A DNA stretch of 64,000 bases from Thermococcus profundus (lineage in GTDB: Archaea > Methanobacteriota_B > Thermococci > Thermococcales > Thermococcaceae). Location: the NCBI RefSeq assembly GCF_002214585.1, contig NZ_CP014862.1, positions 1,488,001 to 1,552,000 of the forward strand, given 5' to 3'. A program made the position numbers and the translations under genes. The notes beneath the pieces are model-generated. The model ran no database searches. It saw only the letters and a program-made list of their open reading frames with translations, and was not told where the DNA came from. Positions 49,575 to 56,011 of this stretch are shown in pieces (the stretch's first letter is position 1; every line of letters begins with the position of its first letter).

Positions 49575-51785
49575 ATGGCGTCTAAAAGAATGGTGTTGTC
49601 CATTTTTATTGTGTTTTTAGTGGCTTTTTCAGTAGTGGCCAGCGGCTGTATCGGCGGCGGTGGAGGTGGAAGCACCACCAGCTCAAGCCCGAGTAAGACC
49701 ACAACTACAACCCAGAGCAAGACTACAACCACAAGCCAGTCTCAGACCACAACCTCAAGTCAGGCCAGTTCAACGTCGACCCAGACTACAACCACAACAC
49801 AGCCTCCAGCCCAGCTAACGCCGCAGATACTCGAGATGGATAAAGTCTACGTGATAGAGACCGACAAGAGCGTCATTGTCGTCGGACCCAAGGGTGAGAA
49901 CCCGACCGCTCAGATCCCGAGCGGTGCCAAGGTCATAAAGGTCGAATACGAAGTTGATGAAGCCAACACCCCGAGCATAGAGAGCCTCATGGAGGCCGGA
50001 CAGGGATTCGGTGCCATTGACCCGGCCTTCTTCCGTGACGAGCACGTTGATGCCCTCATCATAGCAGCCCGCAGGCAGACTGACCCGACGATCAGAACCG
50101 AGCTCTTCAAGGCCCTCTACCTCCTCGGAAACAAGTTAGTCCCCGAGGTCATCCTCGGTCAGAACAGGCAGCTCCGTGTCTACTGGGACTGGGTCAAGGG
50201 CAGGTACTACCACCCGACCCTCGCCGAGAGGTATGACCTCATCAGCGAAGATCCCAACGCCCCGTCAGTTGAGATCGGAATCAAGGACTACAAGAACAAC
50301 CCCGAAACCTACACCATAGCTACTATCGGCTGGCCGGAGAGCTTTGACCCTGCAATGACCTACGAGACCTTCGGATGGGAGATCTGGCACGAGATCGGCG
50401 ACACCCTCGTTACCTACTGGAAAGAGGAGACCGAGCAGGTCAGCCCTGACCTTGCGGTTGCCTGGGCCCACAACGAGAACGGTACCGAGTGGTACTTCCT
50501 CATCCGCGGTGGTGTTGAGGCCTACGACCCGTGGAACGACAAGACCTACCCGATTGACGCAACCGACGTTGCCTTCACCTTCCTCCGCGTTGAGAGGCTC
50601 GGACACTCCGTCAGCTGGATGGTTGACAGCTTCATGGACGTCAACCACTCCGCGGCCCTGACCGAGGACGAGTTCAACAACTACCTCAAGGAGCACCCGC
50701 TCATTGCTGAGTTCGGCGGAAAGAGCAAAGAGGTTAAGAGCCTCGACGAGCTCAAGCAGTTCTTCGGCTACAGCGGAGAGACTGCCGGCGTCTTCAAGCT
50801 CGTCCTCCCACAGCCCTACGCCCCGGTTCTCGGAGTGTTAGCAGACCCGTTCCTCAGCGTCGTCCCGATGGAATACCTCCTCGGAGACAAGTACCAGGAG
50901 GCCCTCCAGGCCAGCAACAACGGCCACGACCCGAGCGCCTGGTGGAACTACCTCCAGCAGGGTAAGGACGACCCCACCCACCAGCTCATGCACCAGAAGC
51001 CGGTTGGAACAGGTCCGTTCTACGTCAAGGACTACCAGGAGAACAGCTACATAGTCCTCGAGTACAACCCGCACTACTGGAACGCCACTAGCAATCCAGG
51101 CCACAAGTACGTCATCTACATAATCAACAACGACGCCCAGTCGAGAATCAACCTCTTCAAGACCGGAACCGCTGACGTCGTCGCCATACCTGCGGAGAAA
51201 ATGGACACCGTCAAGAACCTCGAACTCAGCGGCTTCCACTCGGTCGTCAAGACCGACATCCTCCAGCCGATACTTACCTTCCTCGTCTTCAACACCCACA
51301 AGGAGCCCTTCAACAACCCGAAGGTCAGGGAGGCCCTCGCCTACGCTGTCCCGTACGACCAGATAGCCCAGCTCGTCTACAGGAACCTCCTCGAGCCCAA
51401 CTACGGCCCGATACCCAAGCCGTGGCCGGGCTACCTTGAGGAAGGCGTTACCAAGTACACCTACAACATACCCAAGGCCAAGAAGCTCCTCCAGGAAGCT
51501 GGAGTCGACCCGAGCAAGTATAAGATAGAGCTCATCTACAACGAGGGCAACTCAGCGCGTGAGAAGATCATGACCCTCCTCCAGAACGTCTGGAGCCAGC
51601 TCGGCTTCCAGGTCACCGTCAACAGCTACAACTGGCCGACCTACCTCAGCAAGACCGAGCACGGAGACTACGACGTCTACGTTGTTGGATGGGTTCCGGA
51701 CTACCTTGACTCAGACAACTGGGTTGGCCCGTTCCTCTACGGTGCCACCGAGTTCAAGAGCCTCGAAGTTACGGTTTCGAGCTGA
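49575..51785 (+). CDS. dppA: Oligopeptide ABC transporter substrate-binding lipoprotein, circularly permuted
   Basis: The 736-residue protein has a lipobox VVASGC (Cys25) and a Thr/Ser linker to about 75. The segment HVDALIIAARRQTDPTIRTE (about 157-176) through WDWVKGRYYHP (about 205-215) is what normally closes the C-terminus of family 5 peptide-binding proteins. The usual N-terminus (YTIATIGWPESFDPAMTYE, about 249-267) comes after it. The chain ends at DYLDSDNWVGPFLYGATEF and KSLEVTVSS, about 90 residues before the family end. This is direct sequence evidence of circular permutation in the domain. The GGTGG site and ATG are clear. It is the first gene of dppABCDF, and binds peptides at the cell surface. 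Confidence 0.85.
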   Translation: MASKRMVLSIFIVFLVAFSVVASGCIGGGGGGSTTSSSPSKTTTTTQSKTTTTSQSQTTTSSQASSTSTQTTTTTQPPAQLTPQILEMDKVYVIETDKSVIVVGPKGENPTAQIPSGAKVIKVEYEVDEANTPSIESLMEAGQGFGAIDPAFFRDEHVDALIIAARRQTDPTIRTELFKALYLLGNKLVPEVILGQNRQLRVYWDWVKGRYYHPTLAERYDLISEDPNAPSVEIGIKDYKNNPETYTIATIGWPESFDPAMTYETFGWEIWHEIGDTLVTYWKEETEQVSPDLAVAWAHNENGTEWYFLIRGGVEAYDPWNDKTYPIDATDVAFTFLRVERLGHSVSWMVDSFMDVNHSAALTEDEFNNYLKEHPLIAEFGGKSKEVKSLDELKQFFGYSGETAGVFKLVLPQPYAPVLGVLADPFLSVVPMEYLLGDKYQEALQASNNGHDPSAWWNYLQQGKDDPTHQLMHQKPVGTGPFYVKDYQENSYIVLEYNPHYWNATSNPGHKYVIYIINNDAQSRINLFKTGTADVVAIPAEKMDTVKNLELSGFHSVVKTDILQPILTFLVFNTHKEPFNNPKVREALAYAVPYDQIAQLVYRNLLEPNYGPIPKPWPGYLEEGVTKYTYNIPKAKKLLQEAGVDPSKYKIELIYNEGNSAREKIMTLLQNVWSQLGFQVTVNSYNWPTYLSKTEHGDYDVYVVGWVPDYLDSDNWVGPFLYGATEFKSLEVTVSS

Positions 51786-51873: not shown

Positions 51874-52875
51874 TTGGCGAACCTTAAGAAGTTTCTGGTA
51901 AGGAGATTGCTGACGTTTATCCCCACAATAATCGGCGTCACCCTTATAGTGTTTTTGATAGCTTACGTTATCCCCGCCGACCCTGCGAGGGCGTGGGCGG
52001 GCGGTGAAAAGGCCACACCCCAAGCCATTGAAAAGATAAGGCAGCAGTACCACATGAACGATCCGTGGTACTCACAGTACTGGTTCCTCATCAGCGGGCT
52101 GGCCGAGAACAAGATAGTTGACCCGAGGACCTCAAACTACGTCTTTGATGACGTCAGCAAGAGGTTCCCCGTCACCTTCGAGCTCACTCTGGTGGCGTTC
52201 TTTTTCATTCTGATAATAGGCCTTCCCCTGGGCATCCTGGCCGCCCTTAAGAGAAACACATGGGTTGATACCGTTGTAAGGATTTTTGCCCTCACCGGCG
52301 TTTCAATGCCAATATTCTGGCTGGGCTACCTCCTGATGTACATCTTCTTCGTTAAATGGCGTGTCATAACCCTGGCCGGGTTCCCAGCCCCACCCGCTCA
52401 CACGATAACCCACGTTCCGATGATAGACGCCCTGATTACGGGCGATTTCAAGACCTTCAGCCAGCACATAAGCAGACTCTGGCTTCCAGGTTTGACGCTG
52501 GGGTTCACCGGCTCGGGGGTTCTCGCGAGGTTCGTCAGGAACTCTTTCCTCGAGGCCCTCAGTAGCGACTACGTTGCCTTCCTCAAGGCTAAGGGCGTTT
52601 CAAAGCTCAGGATATACAGACACGCCTTAAAGAACGCACTGGTGCCTATAGTCACTGTCCTAGGACTCCAGTTTGGCGGCCTCCTCGGCGGAACCCCGAT
52701 CACCGAGAGGGTCTTCGGCCTTCCAGGAATGGGATCCTACGTCCTCGACGCCATAAGCAACCTGGACTTCCCGGCAGTGGTGGCGATAACCTTCATCTTC
52801 GCCCTGATATTCGTCACGACGAACCTGATCGTCGACCTGCTCTACGCTGTCATAGACCCGAGGGTGAGGTACTGA
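51874..52875 (+). CDS. dppB: Oligopeptide ABC transporter permease DppB
   Basis: The 333-residue protein has six membrane helices, starting with FLVRRLLTFIPTIIGVTLIV, and the permease EAA region (SDYVAFLKAKGVSKLRIYRH and ALKNALVPIVTVLGLQFGGLLGG in parts). It is of the DppB/OppB family. The start is TTG at 51874, behind GGAGGGGTGA. No ATG in a good position is available. It is the second gene of the dpp operon. Confidence 0.92.
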   Translation: MANLKKFLVRRLLTFIPTIIGVTLIVFLIAYVIPADPARAWAGGEKATPQAIEKIRQQYHMNDPWYSQYWFLISGLAENKIVDPRTSNYVFDDVSKRFPVTFELTLVAFFFILIIGLPLGILAALKRNTWVDTVVRIFALTGVSMPIFWLGYLLMYIFFVKWRVITLAGFPAPPAHTITHVPMIDALITGDFKTFSQHISRLWLPGLTLGFTGSGVLARFVRNSFLEALSSDYVAFLKAKGVSKLRIYRHALKNALVPIVTVLGLQFGGLLGGTPITERVFGLPGMGSYVLDAISNLDFPAVVAITFIFALIFVTTNLIVDLLYAVIDPRVRY

Positions 52876-52885
52876 GGTGGTGGAA

Positions 52886-54049
52886 ATGAGCCAAGAAGAG
52901 TACAAGAAGGGTATCCTCGACAGGATGGCAGATGGCTTTGTCGAGTTCCTCGGATCGTTCATAAGCCTGTTTAAAAAGGACTGGAAGAAGAAGAACCGCT
53001 CCAAGATGGAAGAATGGCGCCTCATGCTCTACGCCCTCAACCGCTCTCCACCGGGACTTATAGGACTCGTTCTCATACTCATGTTCGTATTCCTCGGCCT
53101 CTTCGGCCCGAGCCTCGCCTCGTGGAGCTACCGCGACTTCCCGGCCCTTGAGAACATGACGACTTACCTAGCCCCGCCAGGATCCCACGCTTACCTGCCG
53201 TTCTCAAACAAGACCATAAGCTATCCCCTGGGTGCCGATGACTACGGAAGGGATCTCTTCAGCCTGATACTCTACGGCGCCAGAACCTCCTTCGTCATCT
53301 CAATCATAGTCATAGCCCTCGGAGTTCCCCTCGGCATTATTCTAGGATTAGTGGCCGGATACTACGGAGGAAAAGTGGACGAGCTGATAATGCGTATCAC
53401 TGACATGTTCCTGGCGTTCCCGGCGCTCATACTTGCAATAGCGTTCTCAGCCGTCCTCCCGGAGAGGCTGCAGTCATTCATATCAAGCCACGCAACGTTC
53501 GAGAAGATCTTCCTCTGGATATTCGCCCTGAAACCACAGGAAGCCGGCAACCTGGGTAAACTGCTCGCGGTCATACTGGCCATGGTTATAGTGTGGTGGC
53601 CGGCGTACGCGAGGATAACCAGGGGTTCAACCCTAACCGAGAGGGAGAGCCTCTACGTCGAGGCTGCTAGGGCCATAGGCCTCAGTTCAAGGACGATAAT
53701 GTTCAAGCACATCCTCCCCAACATAGTGGGGCCGATACTGGTCTACATCACCCTCGACTTCGGCGGCGTCATCCTCATGGAGGCTGGACTGAGCTTCCTC
53801 GGCCTCGGTGCAACACCGCCAATAGCCGACTGGGGAAGAATAGTCTACGACGGCTCGCAGCACTTCCCCGAGAAGTGGTGGCTGGTAACATACCCAGGCC
53901 TGATGATCATGCTCGTCGCCCTCGGATGGAACCTCCTCGGTGACACCATGAGGGACATCCTCGATCCAAAGATGAGGAGGAGCATCGAGTTCAAGGTGAA
54001 GAAGCAGAAGAAGATGGAGAAGGCTGAGGAGGGTGAGGAGAATGCCTGA
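52886..54049 (+). CDS. dppC: Oligopeptide ABC transporter permease DppC
   Basis: The 387-residue DppC/OppC permease has an N-terminal extension of about 60 residues rich in charged residues, a hydrophobic segment GLIGLVLILMFVFLGLFGPS and the EAA loop LYVEAARAIGLSSRTIMFKH (about 255-274). It ends AEEGEENA. The ATG at 52886 is behind GAGGTGG; GTG 52877 and 52880 are part of the site. It overlaps dppD by 8 bases. Confidence 0.92.
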   Translation: MSQEEYKKGILDRMADGFVEFLGSFISLFKKDWKKKNRSKMEEWRLMLYALNRSPPGLIGLVLILMFVFLGLFGPSLASWSYRDFPALENMTTYLAPPGSHAYLPFSNKTISYPLGADDYGRDLFSLILYGARTSFVISIIVIALGVPLGIILGLVAGYYGGKVDELIMRITDMFLAFPALILAIAFSAVLPERLQSFISSHATFEKIFLWIFALKPQEAGNLGKLLAVILAMVIVWWPAYARITRGSTLTERESLYVEAARAIGLSSRTIMFKHILPNIVGPILVYITLDFGGVILMEAGLSFLGLGATPPIADWGRIVYDGSQHFPEKWWLVTYPGLMIMLVALGWNLLGDTMRDILDPKMRRSIEFKVKKQKKMEKAEEGEENA

Positions 54050-55022
54050 ACCCATCCTTGAAGTCCGCGATCTCACGGTTCACTTCTACACCTACGCAGG
54101 CATAGTCAAGGCCATAGAGAAGGTATCCTTCGACATATACCGCGGTGAGACCTTCGCCCTCGTAGGGGAAACCGGCTGTGGAAAGAGCGTTACTTCAAGG
54201 GCCTTGACTCAACTCATAGAGAGCCCCGGAAGGATAGTGGATGGAAAGGTGATCTACCACAGGGACGACGGCTCAACGATTGACCTTCTCAAGCTCAGCG
54301 AGGAGGAGATACGGGAAATCAGGGGAAAGGAGATAGCCTACATATTCCAGGATCCCCACGCGTCGCTGGATCCCCTCTACACGGTCGGCTACCAGATAGC
54401 TGAAGCTATGGTGGTTCACAAAACAGTCAAGGACTGGAAAGAGGGCCTCAGACGGGCCGTCGATATATTAAGGCGCGTTCTCATTCCCGATCCAGAGAAC
54501 AGGGTGAACAACTACCCCCACGAGATGAGCGGAGGAATGAAGCAGAGGGTCGTCATAGGAACGGGTATCTCCAACGATCCGAAGATTCTGATAGCCGACG
54601 AGCCGACAACCGCCCTCGACGTTACAGTCCAAGCCCAGATCCTCGACCTGATGAACAAGCTCAAGAAGGAGTACAACACCACCGTGATACTCATCACCCA
54701 CAACATGGGCGTCGTGGCAGAGATGGCGGACAGGGTGGCCGTGATGTACGCGGGGAAGATAGTGGAGATAGGATCGGTAGATCAGATCTTCAAGAACCCG
54801 CTCCACCCCTACACCAAGGGACTCCTCAAGGCAGTTCCGAACCCGCTGGCGAAGATTGAGAGGCTGGAGGCCATTCCGGGAACCGTGCCCAATCTGATAA
54901 CGCCGCCCGGAGGATGCCGCTTCCACCCAAGGTGCCCGTACGCGACCGAGATCTGCAGGAAGAAGGTACCAGAGCTTAAGGAAATGGAGCCGGGCCACTT
55001 CGTGGCCTGCCACCTGTACTGA
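54042..55022 (+). CDS. dppD: Oligopeptide ABC transporter ATP-binding protein DppD
   Basis: The 326-residue ABC ATPase has Walker A VGETGCGKSVTSRAL (about 37-51), signature MSGGMKQRVVIGTGI (about 162-176), Walker B ILIADEPTTALD and H-loop ITHNMG. The C-terminal oligopeptide-type region has [14 protein letters not shown] (Cys-rich, about 290-303). It couples ATP hydrolysis to peptide import together with DppF. Confidence 0.94.
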   Translation: MPEPILEVRDLTVHFYTYAGIVKAIEKVSFDIYRGETFALVGETGCGKSVTSRALTQLIESPGRIVDGKVIYHRDDGSTIDLLKLSEEEIREIRGKEIAYIFQDPHASLDPLYTVGYQIAEAMVVHKTVKDWKEGLRRAVDILRRVLIPDPENRVNNYPHEMSGGMKQRVVIGTGISNDPKILIADEPTTALDVTVQAQILDLMNKLKKEYNTTVILITHNMGVVAEMADRVAVMYAGKIVEIGSVDQIFKNPLHPYTKGLLKAVPNPLAKIERLEAIPGTVPNLITPPGGCRFHPRCPYATEICRKKVPELKEMEPGHFVACHLY

Positions 55023-55033
55023 GGTGATGGAAA

Positions 55034-56011
55034 ATGTCAGAACCACTCCTCAAAGTTGAGAACCTCAAAAAGTACTTCCCGGTCAGGGGCCTTTTCAGGA
55101 CAATAGGCTACGTTAAGGCAGTCGACGGCGTGAGCTTCGAGATAAACAAGGGGGAAACCTTCGGTCTCGTGGGTGAGAGCGGCTGTGGAAAGACGACGAC
55201 GGGGAGGACCATACTCAGGCTGATAGAGCCCACGGGCGGAAGGATCATCTTCGACGGAAAGGACGTGACCACACTTAAAGGCAACGAAATGAAGGCGTTC
55301 CGCAGAAGGGCTCAGATAATGTTCCAGGATCCCTACTCCTCCCTCAATCCGAGGCAGACGGTCTTCGAGATCATAATGGAGCCCGTCCGCTTCCACGGTA
55401 TTCCCGTTGACGATCCCGAGGAGTTCGTCATAGACCTGCTGGAGAGCGTGGGCTTAAACGAGATGCACCTCTACCGCTATCCCCATGAGTTCTCTGGAGG
55501 TCAAAGGCAGCGTATAGCCCTCGCCAGACTCCTAGCACTCAAACCAGAGTTCATAGTCCTCGACGAGCCGACCTCAGCCCTCGACGTTTCGGTCCAGGCC
55601 AACATACTCAACATGCTCAAAGACCTCCAGAAGAAGTACGGGTTCACGTACCTCTTCATCTCCCACGATCTCGGCGTCGTCAAGTACATGAGCCACAGGA
55701 TGGGCGTGATGTACCTCGGAAAGCTGGTGGAGGTAGGTCCAGCCGACAGGATATTCGAGAACCCGCTGCATCCGTACACCCAGATGTTGCTCTCAGCAAT
55801 ACCAGTCCCGGACCCGGAGCTCTCGAAGGAGCTCAAGAAGAAGCGCATGAAGATAGAGGGCGAACCCCCGAGCCCGATAAACCCGCCGGTCGGCTGTCGC
55901 TTCCACCCGAGGTGCCCCTATGCCAAGGACGTCTGCAAAAAGGAGGAGCCACCTCTGGTGGAGGTCGAGAAAGATCACTACGTTGCCTGCTGGCTCTACG
56001 CCAAGTCCTGA
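55034..56011 (+). CDS. dppF: Oligopeptide ABC transporter ATP-binding protein DppF
   Basis: The 325-residue ABC ATPase has Walker [16 protein letters not shown] (about 46-60), signature [15 protein letters not shown] (about 154-168), Walker [13 protein letters not shown] and H-loop SHDLGV, plus the oligopeptide-type Cys-rich [14 protein letters not shown] near the C-terminus. It is the last gene of the dpp operon, with its stop four bases from the convergent next gene. Confidence 0.94.

Follow-up and report, generated by a model that had tools for sequence, protein, structure and literature searches.

Known natural circular permutants mostly form pairs of distantly related proteins. Those of DNA methyltransferases and of saposin and swaposin have been explained by duplication followed by trimming (PMC3320104). 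Among the lipid-tethered binding proteins of ABC importers, the closest precedent is Tp0684 (TpMglB-2) of Treponema pallidum, a circularly permuted glucose-binding lipoprotein placed in 'cluster Bc', for which tethering was discussed by the authors as a possible reason for the permutation (PMC4990184). Because of this precedent, a permuted binding protein is, as a kind, already known. In family 5, E. coli DppA, the binding protein of the DppABCDF importer (PMC12136057; PDB 1dpp, 8z1z), is laid out as N-lobe, hinge and C-lobe (PMC12136057; PMC7312458), with residue R383 binding the carboxylate of the dipeptide and D436 the peptide amino group (PMC12136057).

The window analyzed here is a stretch of 64,000 nucleotides from Thermococcus profundus. 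The product of one of its genes is very probably a functional lipoprotein that binds substrate for a Dpp-type ABC importer, has a circularly permuted chain and belongs to an archaeal family with at least four cut sites. The product, referred to below as the window protein, resembles TpMglB-2 as a natural permutation of a lipid-tethered binding protein of an ABC importer. In contrast to TpMglB-2, which has the cluster B sugar fold, one topology and a cut in the N-lobe, it is an archaeal cluster C protein, and therefore not a member of cluster Bc, and in its family the chain is opened at four or more sites, with one pair of forms at an orthologous locus. The DNA methyltransferases and saposin/swaposin have other folds and functions, whereas the permutants described here are closely related orthologues whose operon is conserved: proteins of about 75% identity differ in chain order, and one pair occupies the same locus within a shared operon. 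Our literature search, which covered papers available without subscription, found no report of permuted cluster C binding proteins. As far as searched, the occurrence of one cluster C gene in several permuted orders, two of them at one locus, is new. The permutants form a graded natural series that bears on how permutations arise and on which loops tolerate new ends, and that lets the place of the tether (N-lobe, C-lobe or hinge) be tested for its role in substrate hand-over to the permease.

An intact and maintained lipoprotein gene ahead of dppBCDF

The gene and its operon comprise the following features, the order found in the window protein being designated CP1.

49575..51785, + strand: circularly permuted family-5 (cluster C) putative solute-binding lipoprotein, 736 aa, form CP1; intact ORF with ATG start, PF00496 match, colinear orthologues in Thermococcaceae
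49575..49646, + strand: signal peptide to lipobox, residues 1-24 (ASG/C, then Cys25); conserved in thermococcal CP1 and CP2 and in the CP3 form
49647..49811, + strand: Cys25, Gly-rich stretch and Ser/Thr-rich linker, residues 25-79; precedes the body in all thermococcal permutants
49842..50030, + strand: downstream part of the insert subdomain, residues ~90-152; contiguous in CP2/CP3, absent from classical-order relatives
50031..50252, + strand: equivalent of the normal DppA/OppA C-terminus, residues ~153-226; 160-226 correspond to DppA precursor 469-535, its last residues
50253..50309, + strand: linker from the natural C-terminus to the natural N-terminus, residues 227-245; seen in the rotated alignment, join kept in all permuted forms
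50310..51743, + strand: residues 246-723, carrying the N-lobe, the hinge and the larger part of the C-lobe in the usual order; PF00496, and phmmer to DppA 31-125 and 201-445
51744..51785, + strand: new end of the chain, residues 724-736 (ATEFKSLEVTVSS), plus stop codon; supplies the first strand of the insert subdomain and lacks ~90 residues found at the usual end
51874..52875, + strand: dppB-type permease, TTG start; comes after the binding protein in the CP1, CP1s, CP2 and CP3 loci
52877..54049, + strand: dppC-type permease (operon comparison)
54033..55022, + strand: dppD-type ATPase (operon comparison)
55034..56011, + strand: dppF-type ATPase (operon comparison)

The lipobox of the window protein, ASG/CIGG, is of the archaeal type; the Pyrococcus consensus is SG/CIGG (PMC3824201). 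The best Pfam, NCBIfam and PDB matches all belong to family 5 / cluster C, and PF00496 (SBP_bac_5) aligns to residues 289-724 with 237.7 bits (curated cut-off 32.4; E 2.8e-70). The gap to dppB, previously given as about 88 bases, is exactly 88 bases from the stop at 51785 to the TTG at 51874.

A first reading of the letters alone (the sequence-only reading) had proposed a search for the same order in related genomes. In Thermococcaceae, matches at E ≤ 1e-60 were found in 64 of the 94 genomes, mostly as one full-length colinear frame. The dN/dS ratio was ~0.01-0.18, the moved segment and the remainder of the gene being alike in this respect. The gene is not an artefact, since most Thermococcaceae carry it full-length and colinear and since it evolves under purifying selection. 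P. furiosus lipoprotein PF1408 (79.4 kDa) has been detected in the culture supernatant with 30 unique peptides and 52% coverage (PMC3824201). PF1408 is probably the CP1 orthologue of P. furiosus because the closest counterpart of its signal peptide belongs to a CP1 gene in nearly all sampled genomes of genus g3. An error of assembly or annotation, or a pseudogene, might be suspected from the few relatives broken by frameshift or stop codons (G015, G029 and G078, all Thermococcaceae, with sequencing error a possible cause). We consider this explanation extremely improbable in view of the open, colinear, full-length frames in dozens of genomes, of dN/dS values far below 1, and of the detection of a probable orthologue by mass spectrometry.

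The moved segment corresponds to the usual C-terminus

Comparison with DppA (5f1q) by phmmer aligned residues 246-339 of the window protein to 31-125, residues 470-718 to 201-445 and, weakly, residues 160-226 to 469-535. All family-5 parts (N-lobe, hinge, C-lobe and returning C-terminal segment) are present by sequence, in rotated order. The sequence-only reading had placed the usual C-terminal portion at about residue 157, and HVDALIIAARRQTDPTIRTE does begin there; residues ~157-226 are equivalent to the last ~70 residues of DppA/OppA-type proteins. That reading was also right to put the usual N-terminus after the moved segment, although YTIATIGWPESFDP begins at residue 246 and not at about 249. 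The natural end is absent from the end of the chain, as had been claimed, but the chain does not stop right after DYLDSDNWVGPFLYG, which is followed by 13 residues (ATEFKSLEVTVSS).

A profile of the 85-residue moved segment, built from 19 family members, matched 20 PDB sequences at E ≤ 1; all 20 were family-5 binding proteins, and every match lay within the final ~100 residues of the protein (best E 1.6e-4). Compared with classical archaeal relatives, the segment aligned by hhalign at the C-terminus of the template (97.2%, E 4.5e-11), and hmmsearch located it at the C-termini of four classical relatives with E values of 9.5e-14 to 3.9e-7 and in a fifth with 0.0012. Reversed decoys gave no matches in the same comparison. 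Single-sequence phmmer searches against classical proteins showed the swapped order for most of the permutants tested, the E value for the moved segment being 1.5e-7 for L068, a protein of form CP2 (described below), and 3e-4 to 6e-3 for the window protein; these searches returned no match for the segment of L078, a divergent CP2 protein. The strength of the moved-segment homology comes from the profiles, the single-sequence matches being weak. An alignment to PF00496 cannot decide on the moved segment because PF00496.27 is the family-5 'Middle' domain, which ends before this segment. Domain models and order-based searches misread the permuted proteins of this family in this way, Pfam seeing the middle part only.

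The rotated alignment lines up along the whole body. The classical archaeal family-5 proteins (L002 from the same genome, L119, L120 and L107, the last also in a dpp-type operon) are homologous after rotation, but unlike the window protein they have the normal order and no insert subdomain. The exchange of two blocks, the homology of each of them and the junction of the natural termini, which mark a circular permutant at the level of sequence, are all present in the window protein.

The insert, of ~65 aa in the C-lobe (window protein ~724-736 and ~90-152; VIETDKSVIVVGPKG...), is specific to the family, classical family-5 proteins having none, and the ends of CP1 and of the related form CP1s lie within it.

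AlphaFold2 models built from few input sequences had pLDDT values of 67 for the window protein and 63 for a CP2 protein, and were weakest in parts of the moved region. Foldseek matched the model of the window protein to DppA-type chains (E 1e-18, TM about 0.4), which, for a model of such low confidence (pLDDT 67), speaks to a family-level fold only. The weaker CP2 model (pLDDT 63) was also matched to family-5 structures by Foldseek.

At least four circular orders in one family

The permutation proposed from the letters alone is supported by swapped-order matches in single-sequence and profile searches, by the rotated alignment, and by relatives in which the joint broken in CP1 is uncut and the chain is opened elsewhere. 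Where the sequence-only reading saw one permuted case, the family has at least four circular orders. In coordinates of the window protein, CP1 consists of residues 80-245 followed by 246-735 and is cut inside the ~65-aa insert: its new N-terminus lies within this subdomain, and the upstream part of the insert forms the C-terminus. CP1s, cut ~25 residues downstream, is found in Thermoproteota, including a Sulfolobales MAG. CP2 (510-735 followed by 88-505, cut at 505/509 in an N-lobe loop) is shared by many Thermoproteota and a single genus of Thermococcaceae (G001-G003). CP3 (554-735 followed by 89-553, cut at 553/554 near the hinge) comes from one Guaymas MAG only. Mapped onto DppA with the published N-lobe/hinge/C-lobe layout (PMC12136057; PMC7312458), the ends of CP1 and CP1s fall in the C-lobe between ~417 and ~441, those of CP2 at mature ~206-211 in an N-lobe loop, and those of CP3 at ~253/254, just before the hinge. 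Every form leaves the joints of the others uncut: that of CP1 is whole in CP2 and CP3, and that of CP2 is whole in CP1 and CP3. The natural termini are fused in all forms, and dpp genes adjoin the binding-protein gene where this is testable: dppBCDF follows it in the CP1, CP1s and CP2 loci, and dppB followed by the contig end in the CP3 locus.

These relatives bear on the proposal that there is no permutation, and that a C-terminally truncated chain has acquired an unrelated N-terminal domain resembling the lost part by chance. The weak single-sequence matches of the segment, and the low confidence of the first AlphaFold2 model in parts of it, could be read in this way. However, the profile matches are significant and placed exactly at C-termini, the segment follows the C-lobe in classical order in CP2 and CP3, and it is under purifying selection. 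We regard a chance resemblance as very unlikely; unless the homology itself is wrong, it is already refuted by the CP2 and CP3 relatives.

The CP3 gene (L014:1957-4401), opened just before the hinge strand, comes from a MAG labelled Thermoplasmata, and the gene tree places it beside Thermococcaceae. At L112 (G341), the permuted gene is divergent from dppBCDF and not the first gene of the operon. Genome G268 harbors CP1s and CP2 genes together (L105 and L106), and a separate set of dpp genes accompanies each. Split ORFs in G834, G843, G961 and G500 were explained by contig ends.

A different order at the same locus

In the CP2-bearing sister genus, g2 (L082, L083, L013), the CP2 order was found at the locus orthologous to that of CP1 in the window, with shared upstream neighbors and shared dppBCDF. 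The genus g2 CP2 proteins are 74-77% identical to CP1 in both blocks, and their signal-lipobox-linker is very similar to that of the window form. In a tree of sequences first rotated to a common order, genus g2 CP2 was nested within the Thermococcaceae CP1 clade (support 100/100), and separate trees of the two blocks agreed in placing it there. Topology tests rejected the monophyly of CP2 (p-AU 4e-37) and likewise that of CP1 (1e-72). We lean towards the view that the family was re-permuted several times in archaea, including a switch at one locus among close genera, through duplication and trimming or through recombination between permuted alleles. Circular order would then behave as a trait open to evolution, while the signal-linker module in front of it stays fixed.

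The transfer of CP2 followed by gene conversion of its body is a serious alternative, because the chains of CP2 proteins stop at almost identical positions in the two phyla (mostly YG[YF]KP*) and because the resemblance of genus g2 CP2 to CP1 breaks down precisely around the two cut sites. There would have been one or two permutation events only, the CP2 gene having spread between archaea and its body having been overwritten by conversion with the resident CP1, and the tree would overstate the number of re-permutations. In keeping with this scenario, most of CP2 of the sister genus shows 75-100% identity to Thermococcaceae CP1; the stretches around the two cut sites are the exception, being matched about equally well or better by crenarchaeal CP2. 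CP1s and CP2 also coexist in G268. Against it, each of the two blocks falls with the local CP1 clade, the locus is syntenic, and the cut regions diverge anyway because they are short and form chain ends in one form. We put it at somewhat under an even chance.

A probable route through duplication

In CP1, the linker of ~20 residues connects the two natural termini, each of which belongs to the N-lobe, and the chain is reopened inside the surface insert of the C-lobe, so that the same three-dimensional body would be threaded in another order. Each cut form (CP1, CP1s, CP2 and CP3) sits behind an N-terminal signal/anchor and linker. Duplication, fusion and loss, as suggested before, is the likeliest route, but the leftover duplicate piece that it might leave was not found. 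Most likely, the body was duplicated in tandem behind the signal-linker module, the front of the first copy and the back of the second were then lost, and the new ends became fixed in surface loops. Later changes of form, such as that of the CP2 genus at the orthologous locus, may have come about by a repeat of duplication and trimming or by recombination between permuted alleles. Neither a tandem intermediate nor a leftover duplicate was detected in the ORFs or flanks (flank scan, 121 ORFs), and this absence does not exclude duplication. A 1297-aa ORF in G304 was rejected as a tandem intermediate, being glycosidase-like sequence bridged by a run of N, and a 'fossil' past the CP2 stop codon in G916 was judged a chance product of a weak read-through alignment.

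Probable solute capture for DppBCDF

The window protein shares with E. coli DppA a predicted family-5 fold (residues 246-718 aligned to DppA 31-445), the dppBCDF operon and the aspartate for the peptide amino group. It differs by its rotated order, by the C-lobe insert, by the lipid anchor and linker, and by an asparagine in place of the carboxylate-binding arginine: mapped onto DppA, D436 is conserved as Asp709 and R383 is replaced by Asn656. The window protein scored 114.5 bits with the DppA equivalog NF043070, for which the cut-off is 1005, and is not DppA in the strict sense. The label 'dipeptide-binding' is not supported because of Asn656 and of this distance from the equivalog cut-off. 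Capture of a peptide or similar solute for delivery to DppBCDF is nevertheless favored as the putative function on account of the operon context, the family-5 match and Asp709. The loss of the carboxylate-binding arginine could also suggest that the permuted body is not an importer component and serves, for example, as a sensor. We find this improbable, since dppBCDF follows in the CP1, CP1s and CP2 loci, dppB follows CP3 before the contig end, and the amino-group aspartate is kept.

The sequence-only reading had also proposed that the permutation moves the lipid anchor to another face of the fold, which might affect docking to the permease. Mapping onto DppA, which in this case is of sequence only, agrees with a displacement from the N-lobe to the C-lobe (lobe layout from PMC12136057 and PMC7312458). 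The lipid anchor and the Ser/Thr-rich linker would thus tether the window protein from its C-lobe.
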